Of a stretch of 64,000 nt of DNA, positions 1 to 63,485 are shown one piece after another. The position numbers and the translations under genes are program-made. Within the stretch, counting starts at the first letter, position 1. Each line of letters begins with the position of its first letter. Below the pieces are notes generated by a model that had not been told where the DNA came from, did not search any database, and saw only the letters and a program-made list of their open reading frames with translations. The stretch comes from Georgenia muralis. Its GTDB lineage: Bacteria; Actinomycetota; Actinomycetes; Actinomycetales; Actinomycetaceae. Where the stretch lies: positions 2,852,001 to 2,916,000 of the forward strand of contig NZ_RKRA01000001.1 in assembly GCF_003814705.1 (NCBI RefSeq), written 5' to 3'.

Positions 1-429
1 GACGGTGGAGTTGACGTCGGCGCGCGTGCTCGCCCGCACGACGCACGCCGCGACCCGCTCCTCGCCGTCGCGTCGGCCCGCGACGAGCACGCAGTTGGCC
101 GAGGCGCCGAGCGGGAGGCGGTACGCCTCGGTCATCGCCAGGGTGTCGGCGAGGTCGGGGTCGATCTCCGCGACGCGGACCTCGGCGACGGCGTCGGGCT
201 CGGTCGCCGCCCGGGCGGCCAGCGCCGCGCGGACCGGCTCGGCGAGGAGATCGGGTCGGTCGAGGGCGGGGACCCACAGGAGGGTGCCGAAGGCGACCGA
301 CTCCTCCCCGAGGACAGCCGTGGGCTCGGGCGCGTGCCCGGGCGAGAGCGCCTCGCCCGCGGCGAGGGAGGTCTCCGAGGAGGTGCCGCTCGCCGTGCTC
401 TCACCCGGAGCCGGGACGTCCGTGCTCAC
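1..429 (-). CDS. YbaK/EbsC-type aminoacyl-tRNA deacylase, 3' end beyond window
   Basis: Partial gene read leftwards; 143 codons are visible and the C-terminus lies beyond position 1. After a low-complexity N-terminus of about 40 residues comes a typical YbaK-fold stretch: AEVRVAEIDPDLADT, then ASANCVLVAG, then RASTRADVN at the edge, where the family has the edge of its substrate pocket. Family members hydrolyse mischarged aminoacyl-tRNA (Cys-tRNAPro or similar) in the cytosol; the substrate cannot be told here. The GTG start overlaps the stop of the upstream PEBP gene in a GTGA junction, so the two are probably translationally coupled. Family assignment is fairly sure, substrate is not. Confidence 0.75.
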   Translation of the reverse strand, partial: MSTDVPAPGESTASGTSSETSLAAGEALSPGHAPEPTAVLGEESVAFGTLLWVPALDRPDLLAEPVRAALAARAATEPDAVAEVRVAEIDPDLADTLAMTEAYRLPLGASANCVLVAGRRDGEERVAACVVRASTRADVNSTV

Positions 430-953
430 CGCTGGTAGGTCGCCACGAGGATGCCCCGGGCGAGGGTGTGGAAGACGGTCCGGACCGCGACCTTCGTGGG
501 CGAGTCGTCCTCCTCCAGCTCCATGGTCTCGGTGTCGAGGGCGTGGACGACGAAGTAGTAGCGGTGCTCGCGGTCCCCGGCGGGCGGCGCGGCGCCCGTG
601 TACGTGTGGTCGCCGTCGTCGTTGCGGACGTGGAAGGCGGCCCCGGGCAGCATGAGGTCGGACTCGCCGGCGCCCTGCTCGAGCTCGGTGGTGTCGGTGC
701 CGAGGTCGAGGACGGTCCAGTGCCAGTAGCCCGACGGCGTGGGGGCGTCGGGGTCGAAGCAGGTGACGACGAAGCCGCGGGTCTCCGCCGGGAAGCCGGA
801 CCACGCCAGCTGGGGGGAGACGTTGCCGCCGCCGGCGGCGTGGAGGTCCGCCATCCGCTCGCCGTGCACGAGGTCGGTGGAGGTGACCGTGAAGGACGGC
901 ACGGCGGGCAGCTTGTCGTAGGGGTCCTGGGCGAGGGGGCGGTCGAGGTCCAC
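426..953 (-). CDS. YbhB/YbcL-family PEBP-like protein
   Basis: A 175-residue protein of the phosphatidylethanolamine-binding-protein (Raf kinase inhibitor-like) family. Visible signatures are GGNVSPQLAWSG near residue 40, CFDPDAPTPSGYWHW (the DPDxP ligand-site motif followed by the HW pair), a GAAPPAGDREHRYYF block (the GPxPPxxxHRY motif) and an alpha/beta C-terminus. The start is the GTG at 953 because GGAGG lies about six bases upstream; longer in-frame extensions run into the divergent gene. Bacterial members have no agreed biochemical role. It is followed, with a four-base overlap, by the YbaK-like gene. Confidence 0.85.
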   Translation of the reverse strand: MDLDRPLAQDPYDKLPAVPSFTVTSTDLVHGERMADLHAAGGGNVSPQLAWSGFPAETRGFVVTCFDPDAPTPSGYWHWTVLDLGTDTTELEQGAGESDLMLPGAAFHVRNDDGDHTYTGAAPPAGDREHRYYFVVHALDTETMELEEDDSPTKVAVRTVFHTLARGILVATYQR

Positions 954-1111
954 TTCATCCTCCGGGAGTCGGCGACGGCGTCGCTCACAACCTACGGCCT
1001 GCACGGGCCGGTCCGCTCGACGTGGCGCGATCGGTGCGGCAGGCACCGGACGGCGGGCGTGTCCAGGCAGTAGCGTGTGGCCCGACACCCCTGGGACGTG
1101 GGAGGACAACG

Positions 1112-2899
1112 GTGGCTGAGGTCGATCACGGAGCCGCGCCGGCCGGCTGGTACCCCGACCCCGAGGACGCCGCCTTCCTGCGACGGTGGGACGGGTTCTC
1201 GTGGACCGACGAGCGCCTGCCCGCGACCCGTGCGGCGCGCCGGTCCCTCCGCACCGGTGGCGCCGCCGCGGCGGCGTCGTCGGCCGCCCACGCCCCTGCC
1301 GCCCTCGCTCCGGCCGGTCCGGACCTCGAGCGGCTGCGTGAGGAGGCGCGGGCTGATGCGGAGAGGATCCGGTCGGAGGCGCGGGCCGAGGCCGAGCGGG
1401 TCCGGGCCGAGCTCGCCGAGGCCGAGGAGGAGCTGTCGGCGGTGCGGACCCGGCTCGAGCAGGGCCGGGACCAGCTCGCGGCGAGCAAGGGTGAGCTCGA
1501 GACCCGGCAGGCCCGGCTCGCGTCGCAGCAGGAGGACATCGCGGCCGGGCGCGCCGAGCTCGAACGCCAGCGCGCCGAGCTCGACGCCGGCCGCGCCGAG
1601 ATGGCCGCGATGGAGTCCGAGGCCGCACGCGCGGCCGACCTCTCCCGGACCGAGCTCGCCCGCGAGCTCGACGCGCGGCGGGCGGCCCTGGCGCAGGAGG
1701 AGCAGCGCAGCCGGGCCGAGCTGGCCCGCGAGATCGAGACGGGCCGGGCCGAGCTCGACCGGCAGATCCAGAGCGGCCGGGCCGCGCTGGCCGAGGAGGA
1801 GCGGAGCCGGCTCTCGGCGCTCGGCGAGGAGGAGGAGCGCCGTCGTGCGGGCCTCGAGGAGGAGACGCGTGCGCACCTGACCGAGCTCGCCGACCGGGAT
1901 GCGGCCGCCGCGGCTGCCGTCGCCGCGCGGGAGTCGGAGCTCGCCGCGCGCGAGACCGCCGCGGCGGAGGAGATCGCGGCCGGACGTGCGGACCTCGACG
2001 CGCGCCGGGCCGAGCTCGTCGCCCGGGAGGCGTCCGTCGGCGAGGAGCTCGCCGCACGGGTGGCCCGGGTTCAGGAGCAGGAGGCCGCGGCCGCCCAGGA
2101 GCTGACGCAGCGGCGGGCCGACCTGGCCGAGCTGACCCGCGCGGCGCAGGAGGCCGCCCGGCTGGTCCAGGACCGTGAGAGCGAGATCGCGCGCCTGGAG
2201 GAGGAGAGCCGCCGGCTCGTCGGGGCGCGCGAGGCGGAGCTGGCTCAGCTGGCTGACCGGAGCGAGCGGCTGGGCGCCGAGGTGGAGGCGCGCCGCGCCG
2301 ACCTCGCCGGCCTCGAGGAGCAGATCGCGGCGTCCCGCGAGGCGCTGGTGGACCTCGGCGAGCGGGTCCGGCTGCAGGACACCGGCCTGTTCGACTACCA
2401 CCACCCGGCCGAGGACTCGGTCCGGCTCACCGCCCGCCTGGCGGCGCTGCGCAAGGCCGTCGTCGAGATGCTGCGCGACGGCGCCGCCATCACCGCCACG
2501 AGCTCGTTCAAGGTCGGGCACTCCGCGAGCAAGGGGCGCCAGATCGTCGAGGAGATCACGCAGCTGGGCCTGCGGGCGTACAACGCCGAGGCGGAGAACG
2601 CCCTGCGCACGGCGACGGTCGGGTCGATCGACGGGGCCCTGACGCGACTGCTGCGGGCGCGGGACGCCGTCGCCAAGCACGGTGAGCCGTTCGGGGTGGC
2701 GATCACGGACCAGTACCACGCGCTGCGCGTGCAGGAGGTCGAGCTGGCCGCCGAGCACCGCCGGCACCCGGAGCAGGTCCCGGCGCAGCAGCCGGACGCG
2801 GTCCCGCAGTACCAGCCGTACAACGAGGGGGCGGCGCGCGCCTGGTCGGCCCAGGGCGTGCCCGGCCCGTATCCCCGTGGCGTGGGTGAGCTGTCGTGA
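1112..2899 (+). CDS. DUF2510 - long coiled coil - DUF4041 protein
   Basis: A protein of 595 residues in three parts. Residues 8-40 are a DUF2510 module (AGWYPDP, RRWDGFSWTDE), common in actinobacterial membrane-associated or envelope proteins. Residues about 75-440 are almost uninterrupted heptad-rich coiled coil full of E, R, A and L (repeated RAELA/REL blocks). Residues about 440-570 match a DUF4041-like domain (GLFDYHHPAEDSV, GRQIVEEITQLGLRAYNAEAENAL). In phage-related homologues DUF4041 is followed by a GIY-YIG (T5orf172) nuclease; no nuclease follows here. The GTG start is set by GGAGG at 1101-1105. No transmembrane segment is seen, so it may be a cytoplasmic filament or scaffold. Function unknown. 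Confidence 0.8.
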   Translation: MAEVDHGAAPAGWYPDPEDAAFLRRWDGFSWTDERLPATRAARRSLRTGGAAAAASSAAHAPAALAPAGPDLERLREEARADAERIRSEARAEAERVRAELAEAEEELSAVRTRLEQGRDQLAASKGELETRQARLASQQEDIAAGRAELERQRAELDAGRAEMAAMESEAARAADLSRTELARELDARRAALAQEEQRSRAELAREIETGRAELDRQIQSGRAALAEEERSRLSALGEEEERRRAGLEEETRAHLTELADRDAAAAAAVAARESELAARETAAAEEIAAGRADLDARRAELVAREASVGEELAARVARVQEQEAAAAQELTQRRADLAELTRAAQEAARLVQDRESEIARLEEESRRLVGAREAELAQLADRSERLGAEVEARRADLAGLEEQIAASREALVDLGERVRLQDTGLFDYHHPAEDSVRLTARLAALRKAVVEMLRDGAAITATSSFKVGHSASKGRQIVEEITQLGLRAYNAEAENALRTATVGSIDGALTRLLRARDAVAKHGEPFGVAITDQYHALRVQEVELAAEHRRHPEQVPAQQPDAVPQYQPYNEGAARAWSAQGVPGPYPRGVGELS

Positions 2900-3081
2900 C
2901 GGACCTTCCGCCGCCGTCGCCCCGCGACCGGGTGGACGTGCCCGAGGGGGGATCGGCTCTCCCGCCCCCGGCGACGGCGGACCGTGTGGAGCTGGACACC
3001 TCCGGTTCGCGCGTGCTCCCGTGGCTGGTCGCCTCGGCCCTCCTCGCGCTCGCGGTGCTGGTGTTCCTCCTCCTGGGCTGA
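2896..3081 (+). CDS. small single-pass membrane protein
   Basis: A 61-residue protein whose GTG start overlaps the stop of the DUF2510/DUF4041 gene by four bases (GTGA), so it is probably co-translated with it. The first 40 residues are polar and proline-rich. Residues 41-60 form one hydrophobic helix (VLPWLVASALLALAVLVFLL) ending at the C-terminus, a tail-anchored layout. It may anchor the coiled-coil protein to the membrane; that is inference from the coupling alone. I recognise no family. Confidence 0.6.
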   Translation: MTDLPPPSPRDRVDVPEGGSALPPPATADRVELDTSGSRVLPWLVASALLALAVLVFLLLG

Positions 3082-3190
3082 TCCGGCCCGGGCGGGCCTC
3101 TGGGCTGATCTGGGGCGAGCTCGTCGAGCGCCGCCGCCCGGCTCGGGCTGCTTTCCGTCTGAGGTGCACCACGGCCGCGACGAGTCTGCA

Positions 3191-3313
3191 CATCTGGTCG
3201 TGGATCGCGACCATCTGAGCAATCTCGTCCGGTGGTGAACGGACGGCGCCACGGGCGGAAGCACCGAGTCGCTCATCTGGTCGTGGATCGCGACCATCTG
3301 AGCAATCTCGTCC
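3191..3313 (+). repeat. pair of 40-bp direct repeats
   Basis: The 40 bases at 3191-3230 recur exactly at 3274-3313, 83 bases later. Each copy contains TGGTCG...CGACCA, able to form a six-base stem. The repeats lie in the 404 bases between the small membrane gene and imuA, where I see no gene. They look like a dispersed intergenic repeat. Confidence 0.8.
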
Positions 3314-3450
3314 CGTGAGGAGGGCTCGGAGCCGGTCTGGACCGTCGATGTCGGTGGTGGCGTGAAGACTTCCGGCGCGGGTACGGGGCCGGCGGGGAGA
3401 CATGCCGAGCCGGTTGACAACCGGCTCTCCCCGACCAAGACTTGAACGCG

Positions 3451-38729: not shown

Positions 38730-40054
38730 CCCAACCTGTCACCCGTTCGTGCAGCAGTCCCCTGCGGCGAGGAAGCAGCGTGAGGGGACGACCCACGAAT
38801 CGGCTGTGAGCCCCCGGACCCTGACCAGGCCGGGCACGCCCGACCTCAGACCGTGCCCTGAGTTGGCTCATTCGCTTAGTGCGTGAGTTGCCCGCTGTGG
38901 ATCGCGTCGAGGATGGCTTGCTGCTCGGTGGGGATGGCGGGGGCGAAGGTCTGGGTGGCGCCGTTGATCGCGATCGTGGCGGAGCGCAGCGGCCGGAGCT
39001 GGCGGATGACGTTGCGGATGGCCAGGCTGGTGCGGGCTTGGACCTCGCGGGAGACCGCCAGTGCGGTGAACACGATGGTCAGGTGGGCCTCGATCGCGTC
39101 GCGGGTGCGGTGGAACATGGGGCGGGCGCGTAGGTCGGTCTTGCTCATCCGGAAGGACTGCTCCACGTGCCACAGGTCGTGGTAGGAGCCGATGACCTCA
39201 CCCGCCGGCATCACTGGCGCGGGGATGTTGGTGACGTAGCCCTTGAGCCCGACCAGTCGCCGGGCCCGTGCCAGGGCGGTCTCGTCCAGGCGGTGCCCGT
39301 CGCCGCTGGTCTTGACGAATCGCGGGGTGCGGGCGGCCTTCTCCCCGGCGATGACCGCGCGGGCCCGGTTCTCCTGGAGGGTGAGCGTCTTGTTGTCCCT
39401 CGCCGCGCGTTTGGCGGAGTAGGCCCAGACCGCCCGCCACGAGCCAGGGTGAAGGTCGCGGTCCCAGACCGGCTCGGCCCGATGAGCCGGGTCGTTCTCG
39501 TTGCGCCGCCCGGTCCTGGGGGTGAGGGTGTCGATGACCTGCCCGTCGGCGAAGGCGTCACCGTGCCAGCGGAAGTGCGAGGCCAGGTCCAGCGGTGCCT
39601 TGGTCACCCGGGAGCCGACGATGAACCGCAGGTTCGCCTCGTCTAGCTCGCGCAGGTTGGTCGCGGAGAGCATGCCGGCGTCGGCGACGACGACCATGTC
39701 CTCGATGTCGTGACGGGTCTGGAACTGCTTGACGATCGGGATGATCGTGGCGGTCTCTGCCTTGTTGCCCTCGTAGCAGCCGATCTCGAGGGGGAAGCCG
39801 TGCCGGTCGACCAGGAGCCCGACGACGATCTGGGGGTCGACGCGGCGTTCCTTGGAGTAGCCGACCTTGCGCAGGTCGTCCTCCTTCTCGGCCTCGAAGT
39901 ACAACGTGGTCACGTCGTAGAGCACCAGGGAGACGTCACCGCTGCTCACGGCGTGCTCGAAGCACAAGGTGGCGATCTGGTCGCGATACGACCCGCCGAC
40001 CGCGGCGCGGGCGAGGGTGCGTTTCATCGTGGCGTAGCTGGCCGGGACCCGGCC

Positions 40055-54895: not shown

Positions 54896-56221
54896 GTGAC
54901 CAACGCCGAGACCCCCATCCGCCCGGAGGACGAGGTCGTCCAGATCTGCTGCGACCTCATCCGCATCGACACCTCCAACTACGGGGACGGCTCAGGGCCG
55001 GGGGAGCGGGTCGCGGCCGAGCTCGTCATGGCGCTGCTCACCGAGGTCGGGTTCGCCCCCGAGCTCATCGAGTCCGTGCCCGGCCGGTCGAGCGTCGTCC
55101 TGCGCATCCCCGGCACCGACTCCACCCGCCCCGCGCTGGTCCTGCACGGGCACACCGACGTCGTGCCGGCCGAGGCCGCCGACTGGTCGGTCGACCCCTT
55201 CGCCGCCGAGATCCGCGACGGCCTCGTCTGGGGCCGCGGCGCCGTCGACATGAAGGACATGGACGCGATGATCCTGGCGGTCGTGCGCGACATGGGCCGC
55301 ACCGGCTGGCGCCCCCCGCGCGACCTCATCGTGGCGATGTTCGCCGACGAGGAGGCCGGCGGGAAGATGGGCGCCCAGTGGCTCGTGCGCCACCGGCCCG
55401 ACCTCTTCGAGGGCGCCGACGAGGCCGTGAGCGAGGTGGGCGGCTACTCCACCGAGGTCGACGGCCGGCGCGTCTACCTCCTCCAGACGGCGGAGAAGGG
55501 CCTGGCGTGGCTGCGGCTCGTGGCGGGCGGCACGGCCGGGCACGGCTCCCAGGTCAACACCGACAACGCCGTCACCCGCCTCGCCGGCGCCATCCACCGC
55601 ATCGGCGAGCACTCCTGGCCGATACACCTCACCGGCACCGTCCGTCAGCTCCTCACCGGTGTCGCGGACCTCACCGGCACCACGTTCGACCCGGAGGACC
55701 CCGAGGGCATCGACCGCCTCGTCGACGCCCTCGGCCCGGCGAGGAAGTTCGTCGCCGCGACGCTGCGCACCGGCTCCAACCCCTCCCAGCTCGAGGCCGG
55801 GTACAAGGCCAACGTCATCCCCGGCCAGGCGAGCGGCGTCGTCGACGTCCGGTCCATCCCGGGCGACGAGGAGGAGGTCTTCGCGACCATCAAGCGCCTC
55901 GCCGGCCCCGGCATCGAGATCGAGCCGGTGCACCAGGACGTCGGGCTCGAGGTGCCCTTCGCCGGGAACCTGGTGGACGCCATGGTCGCGGCCATCGACG
56001 CCGAGGACCCCGGCGCCGTCGTCCTGCCCTACATGCTCTCCGGCGGCACGGACAACAAGTCCTTGTCCCGCCTGGGGATCACCGGGTACGGCTTCGCGCC
56101 GCTGCAGCTCCCGCCGGACCTGGACTTCCCCGGCATGTTCCACGGCGTCGACGAGCGCGTGCCGGTCGAGGCGCTGAAGTTCGGCTGCCGGGTGCTCGAG
56201 CGGATGCTGCGGACCTGCTGA
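54896..56221 (+). CDS. M20-family peptidase (ArgE/DapE-like)
   Basis: A 441-residue dinuclear zinc hydrolase. Metal ligands are visible in LVLHGHTDVVPAEAADW, WGRGAVDMKDMDAMILA and MFADEEAGGKMGAQWL; the lid domain has GTAGHGSQVNTDNAV. Actinobacterial members are usually called M20/M25/M40 hydrolases with unknown peptide substrate. GTG start at 54896, six bases after TAGCCT with no real ribosome-binding site, so probably leaderless. The stop is only 21 bases from the left end of the composite transposon; the gene is undamaged. Confidence 0.9.
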   Translation: MTNAETPIRPEDEVVQICCDLIRIDTSNYGDGSGPGERVAAELVMALLTEVGFAPELIESVPGRSSVVLRIPGTDSTRPALVLHGHTDVVPAEAADWSVDPFAAEIRDGLVWGRGAVDMKDMDAMILAVVRDMGRTGWRPPRDLIVAMFADEEAGGKMGAQWLVRHRPDLFEGADEAVSEVGGYSTEVDGRRVYLLQTAEKGLAWLRLVAGGTAGHGSQVNTDNAVTRLAGAIHRIGEHSWPIHLTGTVRQLLTGVADLTGTTFDPEDPEGIDRLVDALGPARKFVAATLRTGSNPSQLEAGYKANVIPGQASGVVDVRSIPGDEEEVFATIKRLAGPGIEIEPVHQDVGLEVPFAGNLVDAMVAAIDAEDPGAVVLPYMLSGGTDNKSLSRLGITGYGFAPLQLPPDLDFPGMFHGVDERVPVEALKFGCRVLERMLRTC

Positions 56222-56291
56222 GCGGACCGGCCGGGGGGCCTAGGCCGTGTTGCTAAATGTGGGTGTGGAGCCTTCGGGTGATTCTTGAGTC

Positions 56292-56681
56292 GTGTCGCGA
56301 GATGTCATCACGGACGAGGTCTGGGAGCTGATCCGGGACGTGTTCCCGCCGGCGAGGACACGGGGCCGTCCTCCGGTGGATCGGCGCACAGTGGTCGAGG
56401 CGACCGCGTGGCGGTTCCGCACGGGATCGGCGTGGCGAGACCTCCCCGATCGGTTCGGGAGCTGGAACACGATCTACAAGAACTTCCGCCGGTGGGCGAG
56501 CGACGGCGTCTGGGAGGACCTGCTCACCCACGTGCAGAAGCGGGCGTCGCTCGCTGACGAGATCGACTGGGTCGTGTCGGTGGATTCCTCGATCGCGCGT
56601 GTCCATCAGCATGGCGCGACCTTGCCCCGGGTCACAGGGGGATCCGTCGAACTACAAGAAGTCCGGTCCAGAGCCTCCTGA
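56292..56681 (+). CDS. IS427-type transposase OrfA
   Basis: The 129-residue N-terminal part of an IS5-family transposase: DEVWELIRDVFPPARTRGRP, RFRTGSAWRDLPDRFGSWNT and the first catalytic Asp in VSVDSSIARVHQHGA. The remaining part lies in another frame (OrfB). GTG start. Confidence 0.85.
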   Translation: MSRDVITDEVWELIRDVFPPARTRGRPPVDRRTVVEATAWRFRTGSAWRDLPDRFGSWNTIYKNFRRWASDGVWEDLLTHVQKRASLADEIDWVVSVDSSIARVHQHGATLPRVTGGSVELQEVRSRAS

Positions 56682-57156
56682 CCACGCGATCGGCCGGTCA
56701 CGGGGTGGTTTGACGACGAAGATCCATCTCGTCTGCGACGGGAAGGCCCGGGCGCTGGCGTTCGTCCTCACTGGCGGGCAGGTCGCAGACACGAGCATGT
56801 TCACCTGCGTACTCGACGAGATCCACATCCCCGGCCGAGGGCCCGCGCGCACGAGACCGGACCGGGTGCTCGCGGACAAGGGCTACCCGTCGAAGAAGAA
56901 CCGGGCCTGGCTGCGCGAGCGCGGCGTCAAGGCCACGATCCCCGAACGCGACGACCAGATCGCGCACCGTCGCAAGCGGCCGGGCCGTCCGATCGACTTC
57001 GGCGATGACCAACGGGAGCGCTACAAGGGCCGCAACGTCGTCGAGCGGTGCTTCAACTTCGTGAAGCAGTGGCGCGGACTCGCTTCCCGCTACGACAAGA
57101 CCGCCCGGTCATACGCGGCAGGGATCTGCCTCTCCGCCGCTCTGCAATGGATTTAG
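56599..57156 (+). CDS. IS427-type transposase OrfB (catalytic part)
   Basis: This frame continues the transposase after OrfA: RSRGGLTTKIHLVCDGKARA, the second Asp region DRVLADKGYPSKKNRAWLRE and the Glu region NVVERCFNFVKQWRGLASRY. It is in the +1 frame relative to OrfA; the switch would fit at the G run near 56637-56641. The true N-terminus therefore comes from frameshifting, and the coordinates are only those of the open frame. Its stop lies inside the right terminal repeat. Confidence 0.8.
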   Translation: MSISMARPCPGSQGDPSNYKKSGPEPPDHAIGRSRGGLTTKIHLVCDGKARALAFVLTGGQVADTSMFTCVLDEIHIPGRGPARTRPDRVLADKGYPSKKNRAWLRERGVKATIPERDDQIAHRRKRPGRPIDFGDDQRERYKGRNVVERCFNFVKQWRGLASRYDKTARSYAAGICLSAALQWI

Positions 57157-57203
57157 CAACACGTCCTAGTGCCGCGGGCGGACCGGACGTAGTGAGCGAC
57201 GCG

Positions 57204-57229
57204 GAGTACACTCATTATTGAGGCTACTC
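57204..57229. promoter_or_regulatory. nested palindrome, operator candidate of the cargo TetR
   Basis: GAGTA...TACTC (57204-57208 and 57225-57229) encloses a second inverted repeat CTCA-TTAT-TGAG (57211-57222), just 15 bases before the TetR start. The AT-rich centre contrasts with the surrounding DNA. Confidence 0.65.
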
Positions 57230-57243
57230 AGGGAGGTTGCAGC

Positions 57244-57879
57244 ATGACGATGGCAGTCGCGGCAGCGAGCAGGCGCGACCGCAATATGCGCGACAAGCGC
57301 GACCGGATCTTCCGCGCCGCCGCCGAGTTGTTCGCGGAGCGAGGCTTCGCGGCGGTGACCACGCAGGAGGTCTCCGATCGGGCCGATGTGGCCGCCGGGA
57401 CGCTCTTCCGCTATGCGGCCACCAAGAGCGAGCTGCTGCTCATGATCTACAACGAAGAGTTCCGCGCGGCGATTGACGAGGGCGAACGACGTGCGGCGCC
57501 TATCGCCGAGCCCGCGGCTGCGATCAACGCGCTCGTGGTCCCGACGATCGAGCGCAGCGTCCGCACGCCGGAGAATTCCATGGCGTACCAGCGGGAGCTG
57601 TTGTTCGGCCTCGCGGCAGAACCTTATCGGGCCGAGGGTGTGGAGCTCGTCTATCGACTGGAAGGCCTGATCTCGGCCCGGTTGCAAGCGCATGCGCGCG
57701 AACGTGGCCTGTCCGTCGATTCCGCCTCCGTCCGCCTGGCGGGCGAGACCGTGTTCGGCATCATCAATCTCACCATCGCGCGCCTCTCGGACGCGCCGGT
57801 CGAGCTGTCAGACATCGAGCGAAACCTTCGGGTCCAGATCAAGCAGGTCGTGGATGGCCTGCTCACAGAAAAGGAATGA
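57244..57879 (+). CDS. TetR-family regulator of the oleate hydratase cargo
   Basis: A 211-residue repressor. The helix-turn-helix is RDRIFRAAAELFAERGFAAV, TTQEVSDRADVAAGTLFRYA, ATKSELLLMIYNEE. The C-terminal domain (NSMAYQRELLFGLAAEPYRA, RLAGETVFGIINLTIARLSD) is of the fatty-acid/drug-sensing TetR type but gives no ligand. GGAGG precedes the ATG. First gene of a three-gene operon and preceded by a nested palindrome, so probably autoregulated and responsive to a fatty acid or acyl-CoA. Confidence 0.85.
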   Translation: MTMAVAAASRRDRNMRDKRDRIFRAAAELFAERGFAAVTTQEVSDRADVAAGTLFRYAATKSELLLMIYNEEFRAAIDEGERRAAPIAEPAAAINALVVPTIERSVRTPENSMAYQRELLFGLAAEPYRAEGVELVYRLEGLISARLQAHARERGLSVDSASVRLAGETVFGIINLTIARLSDAPVELSDIERNLRVQIKQVVDGLLTEKE

Positions 57880-57880
57880 C

Positions 57881-58741
57881 ATGTCAAACATCAAGAACGT
57901 GACGGTGCTCGGCACAGGGGTGCTCGGGTCCCAGATCGCCTACCAGACCGCGTTCAGCGGATTCAAGGTGACCGCGTACGACATCAGCGACGAGATCCTG
58001 GCGAAGGCGAAGGAGCGCTTCGAAGGACTCGCGTCGACCTATCAGGCCGACGGTGTCGCCGGTGCCGCCGAAGGCAAGGCGGATGCGGCGCTCACGCACA
58101 TCACGTATTCCTCCGAGCTCGCGGCCGCTGTCGCGGATGCCGATCTCGTCATCGAGGCGATCCCGGAAGTGCTCGCGCTGAAGCAACAGACTTATGAGCA
58201 GCTCGGCAAGGTGGCCCCCGCGAAGACCATTTTCGCGACGAACTCGTCGACGCTGCTGCCGAGCGATCTGAAGGACTTCACCGGCCGCCCCGCACGGTTC
58301 CTCGCGCTGCACTTCGCGAACCAGGTGTGGAAGTTCAACACCGCCGAGGTGATGGGCACCGCCGACACCGACCCCGCCGTGTTCGACGAGGTTGTCGCCT
58401 TCGCGGGCGAGATCGGCATGGTGGCGATCCCGATCCACAAGGAGAAGGCGGGCTATGTGCTCAATTCGCTGCTGGTCCCCTTCCTCAACGCAGGCTACGC
58501 GCTCGCCGCGGGCGGCTATGCCGACCCGAAGGATATCGACAACGTGTGGCGCATCGCCACGGGGGCACCGATGGGACCCTTCCAGATCACCGACATCATC
58601 GGCCTCACAACGCCGTACAACATCCTGTCCCAGTCCGGCGAGGGCAAACAGCTGGGGCAGTGGCTGAAGGAGAACTACATCGATAAGGGCAAGCTCGGCG
58701 TGGCCACCGGCGAGGGCTTCTACACCTACGACGCCAAATAA
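57881..58741 (+). CDS. 3-hydroxyacyl-CoA dehydrogenase
   Basis: A 286-residue NAD-dependent enzyme. The N-terminal Rossmann fold has VTVLGTGVLGSQIAYQTAFS and DLVIEAIPEVLALKQQTY; the catalytic His lies in ARFLALHFANQVWKFNTAEV, then the C-terminal helical domain GYVLNSLLVPFLNAGYALAA, GAPMGPFQITDIIGL. The active-site block departs from the common HFFNPxxxMxLxEV form, so this is a distinct subfamily. It starts one base after the TetR stop. It could oxidise the 3-hydroxyacyl-CoA formed as hydroxy fatty acids are beta-oxidised; that is inference from the neighbour. Confidence 0.85.
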   Translation: MSNIKNVTVLGTGVLGSQIAYQTAFSGFKVTAYDISDEILAKAKERFEGLASTYQADGVAGAAEGKADAALTHITYSSELAAAVADADLVIEAIPEVLALKQQTYEQLGKVAPAKTIFATNSSTLLPSDLKDFTGRPARFLALHFANQVWKFNTAEVMGTADTDPAVFDEVVAFAGEIGMVAIPIHKEKAGYVLNSLLVPFLNAGYALAAGGYADPKDIDNVWRIATGAPMGPFQITDIIGLTTPYNILSQSGEGKQLGQWLKENYIDKGKLGVATGEGFYTYDAK

Positions 58742-58784
58742 CCATCCACCTCATCACGACACGACAAGAAGCAGGAGCACACTC

Positions 58785-60566
58785 ATGCGTTACACCGCGG
58801 GCAATTACGAGGCATTCGCGCGTCCCCGCAAGCCGCAAGGCGTCGATGGCAAGTCGGCGTGGTTCGTGGGAGCGGGGCTCGCCTCGCTGGCCGGCGCCGC
58901 CTTCCTCATCCGCGACGGGCAGATGCCCGGCAACAAGATCACCATCCTCGAAGAGCTCAAGCTGCCCGGCGGTGCGTTGGACGGCATCAAGGAACCGAAG
59001 AAGGGCTTCGTGATCCGCGGCGGACGGGAGATGGAGGACCACTTCGAGACCCTCTGGGACCTCTTCCGTTCGATCCCCTCGCTGGAGATCGAGGGCGCGA
59101 GTGTGCTCGACGAGTTCTACTGGCTCAACCGCGACGACCCTAACTACTCGCTGCAGCGCGCGACCGTGAACCGGGGTGAAGACGCGCGCACCGACGGGCT
59201 GTTCACGCTCTCGGAGAAGGCGCAAAAGGAGATCGTCAAGGTCTTCCTCGCCACCCGCGGGGAGATGGAGAACAAGCGCATCAACGAGGTGTTTTCCGAG
59301 GAGTTCCTGAAGAGCAACTTCTGGATGTACTGGCGCACCATGTTCGCCTTCGAGGAATGGCACTCCGCGCTGGAGATGAAGCTCTATCTGCACCGCTTCA
59401 TCCACCACATCGGCGGCCTGCCCGACTTCTCGGCGCTGAAGTTCACCAAATACAACCAGTACGAATCGCTCGTGCTGCCCCTCTACACGTGGCTGCTGGA
59501 CCAAGGCGTGGTCTTCCACTTCTCCACCACCGTGAACGATGTCGACTTCGACATCGACGAGGAGACCGGCCGGAAGCAGGCCACGCACATCCACTGGACC
59601 TCCCGCGAAAACGGAGCCCCGGGCGACGGTGTCGATCTCTCCGAGAACGATCTGGTGTTCATGACGATCGGCTCCCTGACCGAGAACTCCGACGAGGGCG
59701 ATCAGCAGACCCCCGCGAAACTCGACGACGGACCGGCGCCAGCATGGGACCTGTGGCGGAACGTGGCGGCGAAGCACCCCTCGTTCGGACGTCCTGGCGT
59801 CTTCGCCGACCACATCCCGGAGACGAAATGGGAGTCGGCGACCGTCACCACCTTGGATGCGCGCATCCCCGCCTATATCGAGAAGATCGCCAAGCGCGAC
59901 CCGCTTAGCGGCAAGGTCGTCACCGGCGGCATCGTGACCGCCACCGACTCAAGCTGGCTGCTGTCGTGGACGGTGAACCGCCAGCCGCATTTCAAGCAAC
60001 AGAAGCCCAACGAGGTCGTGATCTGGGTCTACGCGCTCTTCACCGACGTTCCCGGCGACTACACCGGCAAGACGATCCAGGAGTCCACGGGCGAGGAGAT
60101 CGCTCGCGAATGGCTGTACCACCTCGGCGTGCCGATCGACCAGATCGACGAGCTCGCAGCGAACGCCGCGAAGACCGTGCCGGTGATGATGCCCTACGTG
60201 ACGGCGTTCTTCATGCCCCGCCAAGCCGGCGACCGCCCCGACGTCGTCCCCGCAGGCTCGGTGAACTTCGCGTTCATCGGCCAGTTCTCCGAATCGGCCG
60301 AACGCGACTGCATCTTCACCACCGAGTACTCCGTCCGCACACCCATGGAGGCCGTCTACACGCTGCTCGATATCGAACGCGGCGTGCCCGAGGTGTTCAA
60401 CTCCACCTACGACATCCGCAAGCTCCTGGCCGCCACCAGTCGCCTGCGCGACGGCGAGGAACTGAAGATCCCAGGAGGCTCCCTCACCCGGAAGCTGTTG
60501 ATGAAGCGGATCGACGACACCGAGATCGGCGAGCTCCTCAACGAGTTCCACCTGCTCGGCGAGTGA
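58785..60566 (+). CDS. ohyA: oleate hydratase (MCRA family flavoprotein)
   Basis: A 593-residue FAD enzyme that adds water to the cis-9 double bond of oleic and linoleic acid to give 10-hydroxy fatty acids. The FAD-binding GAGLASLAGAAFLIRDG, the loop RGGREMEDHFETLWDLFRSI (containing the catalytic Glu position of the family) and WMYWRTMFAFEEWHSALEMK are close to the family consensus, as are TDSSWLLSWTVNRQPHFKQQ and the C-terminus VFNSTYDIRKLLAA. Length is normal. AGGAG precedes the ATG. Known roles are detoxifying host or environmental unsaturated fatty acids. Here it is the cargo of a composite transposon. Confidence 0.93.
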   Translation: MRYTAGNYEAFARPRKPQGVDGKSAWFVGAGLASLAGAAFLIRDGQMPGNKITILEELKLPGGALDGIKEPKKGFVIRGGREMEDHFETLWDLFRSIPSLEIEGASVLDEFYWLNRDDPNYSLQRATVNRGEDARTDGLFTLSEKAQKEIVKVFLATRGEMENKRINEVFSEEFLKSNFWMYWRTMFAFEEWHSALEMKLYLHRFIHHIGGLPDFSALKFTKYNQYESLVLPLYTWLLDQGVVFHFSTTVNDVDFDIDEETGRKQATHIHWTSRENGAPGDGVDLSENDLVFMTIGSLTENSDEGDQQTPAKLDDGPAPAWDLWRNVAAKHPSFGRPGVFADHIPETKWESATVTTLDARIPAYIEKIAKRDPLSGKVVTGGIVTATDSSWLLSWTVNRQPHFKQQKPNEVVIWVYALFTDVPGDYTGKTIQESTGEEIAREWLYHLGVPIDQIDELAANAAKTVPVMMPYVTAFFMPRQAGDRPDVVPAGSVNFAFIGQFSESAERDCIFTTEYSVRTPMEAVYTLLDIERGVPEVFNSTYDIRKLLAATSRLRDGEELKIPGGSLTRKLLMKRIDDTEIGELLNEFHLLGE

Positions 60567-61357
60567 CCACAAGACGCCCGCGGTCGGCATCCGAGTCCGT
60601 CGCCGCCTGCTTCTTGTCTTCGCACCACGAAGCAAAGGTTTGAACCTTGTGCATCGACCGGTGCACCTAGGCCGTGTTGCTAAATGTGGGTGTGGAGCCT
60701 TCGGGTGATTCTTGAGTCGTGTCGCGAGATGTCATCACGGACGAGGTCTGGGAGCTGATCCGGGACGTGTTCCCGCCGGCGAGGACACGGGGCCGTCCTC
60801 CGGTGGATCGGCGCACAGTGGTCGAGGCGACCGCGTGGCGGTTCCGCACGGGATCGGCGTGGCGAGACCTCCCCGATCGGTTCGGGAGCTGGAACACGAT
60901 CTACAAGAACTTCCGCCGGTGGGCGAGCGACGGCGTCTGGGAGGACCTGCTCACCCACGTGCAGAAGCGGGCGTCGCTCGCTGACGAGATCGACTGGGTC
61001 GTGTCGGTGGATTCCTCGATCGCGCGTGTCCATCAGCATGGCGCGACCTTGCCCCGGGTCACAGGGGGATCCGTCGAACTACAAGAAGTCCGGTCCAGAG
61101 CCTCCTGACCACGCGATCGGCCGGTCACGGGGTGGTTTGACGACGAAGATCCATCTCGTCTGCGACGGGAAGGCCCGGGCGCTGGCGTTCGTCCTCACTG
61201 GCGGGCAGGTCGCAGACACGAGCATGTTCACCTGCGTACTCGACGAGATCCACATCCCCGGCCGAGGGCCCGCGCGCACGAGACCGGACCGGGTGCTCGC
61301 GGACAAGGGCTACCCGTCGAAGAAGAACCGGGCCTGGCTGCGCGAGCGCGGCGTCAA

Positions 61358-62994
61358 CCCGACTTCCACAGGTGGTGGCGGGCTGAGCGGTGTTTGTGCT
61401 GGTCAGGGCTCTGTGGTGGGTTGATTTGGGGCACTAAGTTGGCGGGTATTCTCAGGATGTGTCGCCCTACATCCGCAAGGTGAAGACCGCCTCTGGGGCG
61501 ACCGCGGTACAGATCGCGGAGAAGCGCGGTGGGGTGCGCCGGATCGTGGAGCATCTGGGCTCTGCCCGTGACGAGCTCGAGCTGGCGGTGCTGGTCCAGG
61601 CCGCCCGAGAGCGTCTCAACGCCGGCCAGGACGAACTCGACCTGGGCCTGGACACCCCGGCCGTGTCTTCTGCGGTGCGTGCCCATGTGGTCGGGACCTC
61701 GAGCCGGGTGCTGTGGGAGGTCCTCTCCGACGCCTACCGGGTCCTGGGGTTCGAGTCGTTGAAGGACGAGGCGTTCGCCGCGGTGGTCCTGGCCCGGCTC
61801 GTCGAGCCGACGTCCAAGGCCGACACGGTGCGGGTGCTGGAGGAGATCGGGGTCAGCGCCCCGCACCTGAACACGCTCTACGCGGCCCTGCGACGGGCGC
61901 AGGGCAGGGACTACCGCGACCGGCTCGCCAAGGCGTGCCTGGCCCATTCCGCCCGCACCAGCGGCACGGCCGCGTTGGTGATGTACGACGTGACCACCCT
62001 GCACTTCGAGAACGAGGACGAGGACGACCTGCGCAAGGTCGGGATGAGCAAGGAGCACCGGGTCGACCCCCAGGTCCAGGTCGGGCTCTTGGTCGACCCG
62101 GGTGGCTTCCCCCTCGAGGTCCACCTGTTCGAGGGCAACAAGGCCGAGACCACGACGATCGTGCCGGTCCTGCGGGCCTTCCAGGAACGCCACGGCGTGA
62201 TGGACATGGTCGTCGTCGCTGACGCCGGCATGCTCTCCGCGGCCAATCTCAACGCCCTGGAGGACGCGGGGTTCTCCTTCATCGTCGGCTCGCGGCTGAC
62301 CAAGGCACCCTACGACCTGGCCGAACACTTCGAACGCAACGGCAACTACTTCGACGACGGGCAGATCCTGGAGTCGACCCGGGTGATGGGCACCGGGACG
62401 AATGCCCGGGAGCGGCGGGTGGTCTACCAGTGGTCGTTCAAGCGGAACAAGCGCGATGACCGGGACATCAACTTGATGATCGCCAAGGCGGAGAAGATCG
62501 CCGCCGGCACAGCCCCGCTGAGGAAAACCCGGTTCCTAAAGGTCTCCGGCGCCACCAAGGAGCTCGACCAGGCCACCATCGACCGGGCCCGTCAGCTCGC
62601 CGGGCTGAAGGGGTATGTGACCAACCTGCCCGTCGAGACGATGACCGGCGCGGCGGTCATCAGCGCATATCACGACCTGTGGCGGGTCGAGCAGTCCTTC
62701 CGCATGACCAAGTCCGACCTGCGCGCCCGCCCGGTCTTCCACCACCAACGCGAAGCCATCGAGGCCCACCTCACGGTCGTCTTCGCTGCTCTCGCCATCA
62801 GCCGCTACCTCACCACCGCGACCGGCAAATCCTTGAAGAAGATCGTCAACACCCTGCGGCCCCTGCGCTCGGCGACCATCAGCATCAACGGCCACCACAT
62901 CACCGCAGACCCCGCCATCACCCCCGACGCCCGCGAGATCCTCGACCACCTACCGGCCATCACCACGACGGGGCACTAACCCTGTGGAACTCAG
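61358..62994 (+). mobile_element. IS1634-family insertion sequence, intact
   Basis: 1637 bp. Start-side end CCCGACTTCCACAGG, stop-side end reversed CTGAGTTCCACAGG. Flanked by the 5-base direct repeat GTCAA. It lies in the right IS427-type copy. Confidence 0.88.
61459..62979 (+). CDS. IS1634-family transposase
   Basis: A 506-residue IS4-like DDE transposase, intact. Visible blocks are VKTASGATAVQIAEKRGGVR, MYDVTTLHFENEDEDDLRKV (first Asp), GFPLEVHLFEGNKAETTTIV, MVVVADAGMLSAANLNALED (second Asp) and LWRVEQSFRMTKSDLRARPV (Glu). GTG start at 61459. It parallels the split transposase at 38876-42053 throughout. Confidence 0.92.
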   Translation: MSPYIRKVKTASGATAVQIAEKRGGVRRIVEHLGSARDELELAVLVQAARERLNAGQDELDLGLDTPAVSSAVRAHVVGTSSRVLWEVLSDAYRVLGFESLKDEAFAAVVLARLVEPTSKADTVRVLEEIGVSAPHLNTLYAALRRAQGRDYRDRLAKACLAHSARTSGTAALVMYDVTTLHFENEDEDDLRKVGMSKEHRVDPQVQVGLLVDPGGFPLEVHLFEGNKAETTTIVPVLRAFQERHGVMDMVVVADAGMLSAANLNALEDAGFSFIVGSRLTKAPYDLAEHFERNGNYFDDGQILESTRVMGTGTNARERRVVYQWSFKRNKRDDRDINLMIAKAEKIAAGTAPLRKTRFLKVSGATKELDQATIDRARQLAGLKGYVTNLPVETMTGAAVISAYHDLWRVEQSFRMTKSDLRARPVFHHQREAIEAHLTVVFAALAISRYLTTATGKSLKKIVNTLRPLRSATISINGHHITADPAITPDAREILDHLPAITTTGH

Positions 62995-63239
62995 GTCAAG
63001 GCCACGATCCCCGAACGCGACGACCAGATCGCGCACCGTCGCAAGCGGCCGGGCCGTCCGATCGACTTCGGCGATGACCAACGGGAGCGCTACAAGGGCC
63101 GCAACGTCGTCGAGCGGTGCTTCAACTTCGTGAAGCAGTGGCGCGGACTCGCTTCCCGCTACGACAAGACCGCCCGGTCATACGCGGCAGGGATCTGCCT
63201 CTCCGCCGCTCTGCAATGGATTTAGCAACACGTCCTAGG

Positions 63240-63485
63240 TCAGAGGGTGCTCGGCACCCGCATGGCCTTGCGGCGCAACCACACGCGTCGCGACCCACCC
63301 AGGTACAGCCGTGTGCGGGCCAGCTCCCAGCGGCCGTACTCGGCCTCGTCGGTGAGCAGACGGCGCACGTCACCGTTGCTCACGGACCCGGGCAGGCTCA
63401 GCGTCCGGTACTCGTAGTAGGTGCCCGGGGTGGCCGCACGCCGGCGGGCGGCGGCGGTCCGGTTCTTCTCCGTCGGCATGTCCAC
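63240..63485 (-). CDS. DUF5703 family small protein
   Basis: An 81-residue basic protein. The core TYYEYRTLSLPGSVSNGDVR and LLTDEAEYGRWELARTRLYL then RRVWLRRKAMRV matches the small actinobacterial DUF5703 family of unknown function. GTG at 63485 with GGGAGAG close upstream; ATG at 63479 is an alternative. Its stop codon begins four bases after the end of the right-hand IS, so the transposon landed just outside the gene. The gene is convergent with the M20 peptidase on the other side of the transposon. Confidence 0.75.
   Translation of the reverse strand: MDMPTEKNRTAAARRRAATPGTYYEYRTLSLPGSVSNGDVRRLLTDEAEYGRWELARTRLYLGGSRRVWLRRKAMRVPSTL

Follow-up and report, generated by a model that had tools for sequence, protein, structure and literature searches.

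Composite transposons bounded by IS5-family elements are a known general kind of mobile element: two like insertion sequences (ISs) with intact outer ends carry passenger genes, and the insertion is intergenic and of the CTAG type. A unit of the same anatomy lies in a 64,000-nucleotide stretch of the Georgenia muralis genome (contig NZ_RKRA01000001.1, positions 2,852,001 to 2,916,000; hereafter the window), where two same-direction IS5-family copies surround a tetR-dehydrogenase-oleate hydratase operon at window positions 56240-63238 (6999 bp). It departs from IS5-family composite transposons in its passenger, an apparently autoregulated fatty-acid hydration operon, and in its right IS, which is broken by an IS1634-family element; that it transposed is something we infer. 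The kind of structure is known, and the new part is the cargo with its own operator. The literature, which was covered mostly at the level of abstracts, yielded no description of a composite transposon with an oleate hydratase gene as cargo, and full texts could hold one; nor did the literature searched, with the broadest query seen in part, yield a description of oleate hydratase regulation in actinobacteria.

Interest in oleate hydratase centers on tolerance of antimicrobial fatty acids and on the production of hydroxy and keto fatty acids. In Micrococcus luteus and Nocardia cholesterolicum, a hydratase and an NAD+ secondary alcohol dehydrogenase take oleate to 10-hydroxystearate and then to 10-ketostearate (excerpts of PMC7101164 and PMC7411827), as we predict for the present locus; in N. 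cholesterolicum, however, the two genes have far-apart locus numbers (excerpts of PMC7101164). Regarding transfer, a case has been made against horizontal acquisition of the staphylococcal enzyme, and one ohyA lies on a Staphylococcus plasmid (excerpts of PMC11669549); for lactobacillus ohyA, horizontal transfer and/or gene loss has been suggested, and a tetR gene there adjoins farE (excerpts of PMC11429459).

The IS-bounded unit and its probable arrival

An earlier note on this DNA had described two IS copies in the same orientation, identical where compared and each with CTAG at its ends, around a self-contained operon for a TetR regulator, a 3-hydroxyacyl-CoA dehydrogenase, and oleate hydratase, the whole lying between two convergent, undamaged genes, and this anatomy held up on inspection. 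The left copy (A) matches the two parts of the right copy (B) at 930/930 bases on the same strand, CTAG is read at 4/4 IS junctions (the window has 16 further CTAG sites), and the left IS has the inverted ends CTAGGCCGTGTTGCTAAAT / CTAGGACGTGTTGCTAAAT. The operon consists of three open frames, all on the + strand; 1 bp separates tetR from the dehydrogenase gene, and 43 bp separate the latter from ohyA. Both chromosomal neighbors are intact and converge on the unit, with the M20 peptidase stop 18 bp before it and the DUF5703 stop directly after it. One feature was missing from the description: a 1637-bp IS1634-family element splits copy B. The features, in window coordinates, are as follows.

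56240-57169, +, left IS (IS5 family, NCBIfam transpos_IS5_3), 930 bp including CTAG at both ends
56292-56681, +, transposase open reading frame (ORF) A, DUF4096 part
56599-57156, +, transposase ORF B, DDE part, in the +1 frame relative to ORF A
57202-57230, unstranded, predicted TetR operator, palindromic, 29 bp, CGGAGTACACTCATTATTGAGGCTACTCA
57244-57879, +, TetR-family regulator, 211 residues, PF00440
57881-58741, +, 3HCDH-family NAD dehydrogenase, 286 residues, PRK08293 type (412 bits against a cut-off of 312)
58785-60566, +, oleate hydratase OhyA, 593 residues, PRK13977/NF010584 (870 bits against a cut-off of 567)
60667-63238, +, right IS, same element as the left copy, interrupted, CTAG ends as in the left copy
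61358-62994, +, nested IS1634-family element, 1637 bp, transposase at 61459-62979
54896-56221, +, left chromosomal neighbor, M20 peptidase, intact
63240-63479, -, right chromosomal neighbor, DUF5703 gene, intact, stop at 63240-63242

Matches to the M20 and DUF5703 genes were 0-268 bp apart in 8/8 congeners compared, and in the closest congener, with flank identities of 98% and 99%, the two genes adjoin each other across a short spacer. Across these eight genomes matches to the cargo were short and chance-like (≤71 bases), no OhyA was found, and scoring of the two best candidates in each genome gave no hit to the unit's IS at E≤1e-50; in none of them do the three genes occupy this place.

Matches to the IS in the host genome (40 of 145 candidates scored) were the two unit copies and one 69% relative, and in 200 genomes of the family (E≤1e-50, two candidates scored each) there were three matches: the host, a genome of another genus, and one at 74%. 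The copy in the other genus is identical at 925/930 bases (99.5%) and has CTAG on both sides. This copy (L137 8187-9116) has a TrwC relaxase ORF (L137 12677-16231) some 3.6 kb away, a proximity that suggests conjugative DNA as a vehicle on which the IS travels. Plasmid records matching the IS numbered 202; among the matches listed with IS coverage of 84% or more, identity was at most 77%, and five further records in the 80-90% identity band lay outside the matches listed. The entire 6999-bp unit was not covered to 80% by any of 72,556 plasmid records at megablast sensitivity, and 20 records match parts of it.

The identical IS copies and the empty sites in congeners support a composite transposon, or an IS-bounded unit equivalent to one, as the best reading, with the transposition itself inferred. 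We consider it likely that such a unit, of the IS5 family and carrying a fatty-acid response operon, was inserted in one piece between the two convergent genes, and the unit as a whole seems to have entered the chromosome recently.

Several observations weigh against this reading. The earlier note had expected the empty site to hold a single CTAG between the two neighbors; the neighbors do lie together without the operon in 8/8 congeners, but the closest site has CTCG where the host has CTAG, and its short spacer has diverged. CTAG is likely to have been a pre-existing target, yet its duplication is unproven for that reason. In addition, of four IS relatives of 74-77% identity that were inspected, three (76-77%) carry CTAG at their left junction, and for the fourth, L136, no end was located; CTAG could therefore be part of the element itself. 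A second IS interrupts the right copy, and no further copy of the unit turned up in the plasmid and order-sample searches. The note's claim of lower G+C and different codon use in the cargo stands in part: at 63.9%, cargo G+C is below, and not equal to, the local mean of 71.8 ± 3.7% (211 overlapping 3497-bp segments to the left), but it is just inside the local range, whose minimum is 63.8%, and the codon-use distance between the cargo and two neighboring host genes (0.246) is slightly larger than that between those two genes (0.186). Since six related operons elsewhere also have a G+C of 64.5-67.0%, the low value is partly intrinsic to the genes; G+C and codon use are weak evidence of transfer.

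Circular DNA carrying one IS and the operon, recombining into a solo IS already resident at the site, would leave the same structure, and this too counts against transposition of the unit as such. A circle or plasmid integrating by homologous recombination between IS copies accounts for direct, identical ISs equally well, and it fits both the IS copy 3.6 kb from a relaxase ORF in a relative and the presence of related operons on plasmids. We nevertheless regard this course of events as quite unlikely, as a solo IS was seen at the site in 0/8 congeners, two events would be needed instead of one, and no plasmid backbone genes were found between the IS copies. Two independent IS insertions around an operon that was already resident in the lineage, and was then lost from all sampled relatives, would be in keeping with the placement of the operon in other actinobacteria, where it is on the chromosome or on long contigs. 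That explanation is already disfavored and seems highly improbable to us: the neighbors are within 0-268 bp of each other in every congener, the IS is otherwise absent from the host genome save for the 69% relative, and two insertions plus repeated loss would be required.

Related operons in other bacteria

We compared 92 oleate-hydratase loci, made up of the best 80 of a longer scan, 7 loci from 6 relatives (two overlapping), and 5 plasmid loci. A TetR relative is encoded upstream of OhyA on the same strand in 36 loci, with the dehydrogenase gene between them in 24/36; the same three genes in the same order as in the window are found in Nakamurella aerolata and at many Nocardia and Mycolicibacterium loci. 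The N. aerolata operon is the nearest among the loci compared: its OhyA is 92% identical to that of the window, and the three genes are collinear with 88% DNA identity over cargo bases 105-3379. Neither IS was found in 17.8 kb of this locus. Two ORFs about 2.5 kb downstream of the N. aerolata operon (L014 12258-14481) resemble IS21-type istA/istB by eye.

Besides the host, OhyA was present in 6/98 relatives, the best at 71% identity, and because of this sparse distribution the history of the gene, as read from these comparisons, does not follow that of the host. In a 396-genome sample of the order, where the two best candidates of each genome were scored, matches to the cargo at E≤1e-100 came from 36 genomes, the host among them, the best non-host match being 79% over ohyA alone. 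Among the 72,556 plasmid records, 78 match the cargo and 2 cover more than 80% of it.

Operons bounded by ISs as in the window were not seen elsewhere. Paired flanking repeats (≥200 bp, ≥80% identity) were sought at 84 of 87 oleate-hydratase loci, 14 of which have less than 3 kb on one side, and in contrast to the window 0/84 have a pair that reads as an IS. The sole pair, in L051, is protein-coding and not an IS; by eye, we take the repeat to be OsmC-like. No like IS pair immediately flanking the operon is annotated in eight plasmid regions, for which the gene table is incomplete. On the Roseomonas mucosa plasmid, IS66-type genes lie on both sides of the operon at a few kilobases (L175 1-3 and 9429-10207).

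Alphaproteobacterial plasmids (Novosphingobium, Agrobacterium pusense, Shinella, Sphingobium, and Roseomonas) likewise combine a regulator, a 3HCDH dehydrogenase, and OhyA. They differ from the window in having an acyl-CoA thioesterase gene between the regulator and the dehydrogenase and catalase and Dyp-peroxidase genes alongside; five of them (L125, L126, L174, L175, and L176) share the arrangement Dyp-peroxidase, catalase, TetR, thioesterase, dehydrogenase, OhyA, and no relative of the window TetR was found at L125 and L126. Dehydrogenase WP_046407406.1 occurs in both Shinella and Sphingobium plasmid records, and OhyA WP_035219816.1 in both Agrobacterium and Shinella records. Because some protein accessions are common to Rhizobiaceae and Sphingomonadaceae, the block evidently moves between orders, and because related operons lie on plasmids, the oleate-hydratase trait evidently moves repeatedly. 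At the present locus, an actinomycete has a complete, putatively regulated operon within an IS-bounded unit; the plasmid records point to related operons crossing orders.

Predicted operator, regulator, and pathway

The palindrome that the earlier note had assigned to the TetR regulator proved to be a conserved motif and a predicted operator (57202-57230). Its core, CTCA-N4-TGAG, is located 33 bp ahead of the tetR start, and the exact core is found upstream of tetR in 24/36 loci, against chance expectations of 0.07 loci (mean of 200 mononucleotide shuffles) or about 0.5 (from the loci-wide rate); of 32 occurrences in the 600 kb of the 36 tetR loci, 25 are in these upstream stretches. A matrix built from 20 distinct exact-core sites, with the window excluded, scores the window site at 41.3 bits (35.4 on the other strand), and the next best + strand site in 64 kb scores -2.3. 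Of the 12 tetR loci that lack the exact core, nine score 26-42 bits (the 26-bit line was set after the scores were seen), two Gordonia plasmids score 14, and one scores -15; the N. aerolata locus and most of the other 35 tetR loci thus resemble the window in having the operator motif before tetR. The longer form GAGTA-N2-YTCA-N4-TGAG has 26 occurrences in 1.4 Mb, spread over 25/92 oleate-hydratase loci and all within 2.5 kb upstream of ohyA. In the host genome, the palindrome is the sole exact GAGTA-N2-CTCA-N4-TGAG; 18 further extended-core sites have 2 mismatches, and a backward control pattern gives 10 matches in all. As the sole exact site in the host, and one conserved in other taxa, the predicted operator has by this evidence travelled with the cargo, and it offers a concrete regulator-DNA pair for oleate hydratase. 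Gaps in its distribution count against the proposal: the extended motif is missing from 67/92 loci, and the exact core from 12/36 tetR loci.

By sequence, the closest solved relatives of TetR are 3ang and then KstR chains (first 146 residues only), and alignments with 3ang and with the fatty acid metabolism regulator 3whb extend over most of the protein; 3ang and 3whb are, we presume, acyl-CoA binders. KstR, a regulator of cholesterol catabolism, is the top NCBIfam match, far below its cut-off (48.9 against 280 bits), as well as second among the solved relatives, and for this reason the ligand in the model below is tentative. In the model we propose, TetR would repress from the single predicted operator before tetR and would be released by a long-chain unsaturated fatty acid or its acyl-CoA.

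The predicted function of the cargo is the fatty-acid-induced conversion of oleate to 10-hydroxystearate and 10-ketostearate. OhyA would carry out the hydration, and it keeps the motifs GxGLASx21E and RGGREM intact, which correspond to those quoted for Nocardia enzymes (excerpts of PMC7101164). The dehydrogenase would oxidize 10-hydroxystearate to 10-ketostearate; by analogy with a Nocardia enzyme that catalyzes this step and had been annotated as a 3-hydroxybutyryl-CoA dehydrogenase (excerpts of PMC7101164), the "3-hydroxyacyl-CoA dehydrogenase" may be an NAD+ secondary alcohol dehydrogenase for 10-hydroxystearate. When published primers for the Nocardia enzyme were placed on a 1-kb stretch, 4/7 put the gene start at 57881. 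That match is imperfect: mismatches in these collinear primers number 3, 5, 8, and 10, and the remaining three put the start elsewhere. Among solved structures, the dehydrogenase is closest to a diketoreductase, 4dyd, which also sits poorly with the assignment.

Such conversion would detoxify oleate, to the presumed benefit of the host, and may feed beta-oxidation. Further beta-oxidation genes are present in the host (acyl-CoA dehydrogenase, 4 matches; thiolase, 2 matches; another 3HCDH, 1), so detoxification and catabolism are both possible. With these genes the products could be degraded, and the dehydrogenase has the Pfam domains 3HCDH_N and 3HCDH and retains an H-x11-E pair, which we take to be the catalytic dyad; it could accordingly be a true beta-oxidation 3-hydroxyacyl-CoA dehydrogenase in a cassette for hydroxy fatty acid catabolism, not detoxification. 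We judge this unlikely, as a 727-residue open frame of the host supplies a further 3HCDH domain, the dehydrogenase is paired with ohyA in 24/36 tetR loci, and the Nocardia and Micrococcus enzymes act on 10-hydroxystearate (excerpts of PMC7101164).

Taken further, the unit could be a transposable, fully self-regulated fatty-acid-defense cassette, with one regulator, one operator without another exact host site, and two enzymes. It would then be one vehicle among several independent ones (a composite transposon here, plasmids elsewhere) that spread OhyA-based handling of unsaturated fatty acids between bacteria. We hold this broader view tentatively, as a real possibility just short of an even one; if true, the cassette would be the metabolic counterpart of resistance transposons.

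Transposase frames and the nested element

Both transposase ORFs of the unit's IS belong to the IS5 family by NF033580 (ORF A, 112.7 bits; ORF B, 140.9 bits; cut-off, 110). IS427, the name given to the element in the earlier note, is a presumed subgroup label, the membership tested here being that of NCBIfam transpos_IS5_3. The +1 offset between the two ORFs is also present in the IS relatives L136, L160, L161 (both copies), and L137 (99.5% identical). Programmed frameshifting of the two ORFs is likely, yet not settled, because in another relative, L162 (1501-2371), both transposase parts are in a single frame, unlike in the window IS and the four relatives above.

The nested element belongs to the IS1634 family by NF033559 (405 bits against a cut-off of 100) and has a 5-bp duplication, GTCAA, at its edges (61353-61357 and 62995-62999). 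It would have broken the transposase of the right copy either after arrival or already in the donor, sparing both outer ends of the unit, and because these ends were left, copy A could still move the whole unit. The host genome has one full nested element, and eight other matches (E≤1e-20) are partial and 71-77% identical. Two of these partial relatives (71% and 76%) lie within the window, at 38906-39927 (contig positions 2890906-2891927).

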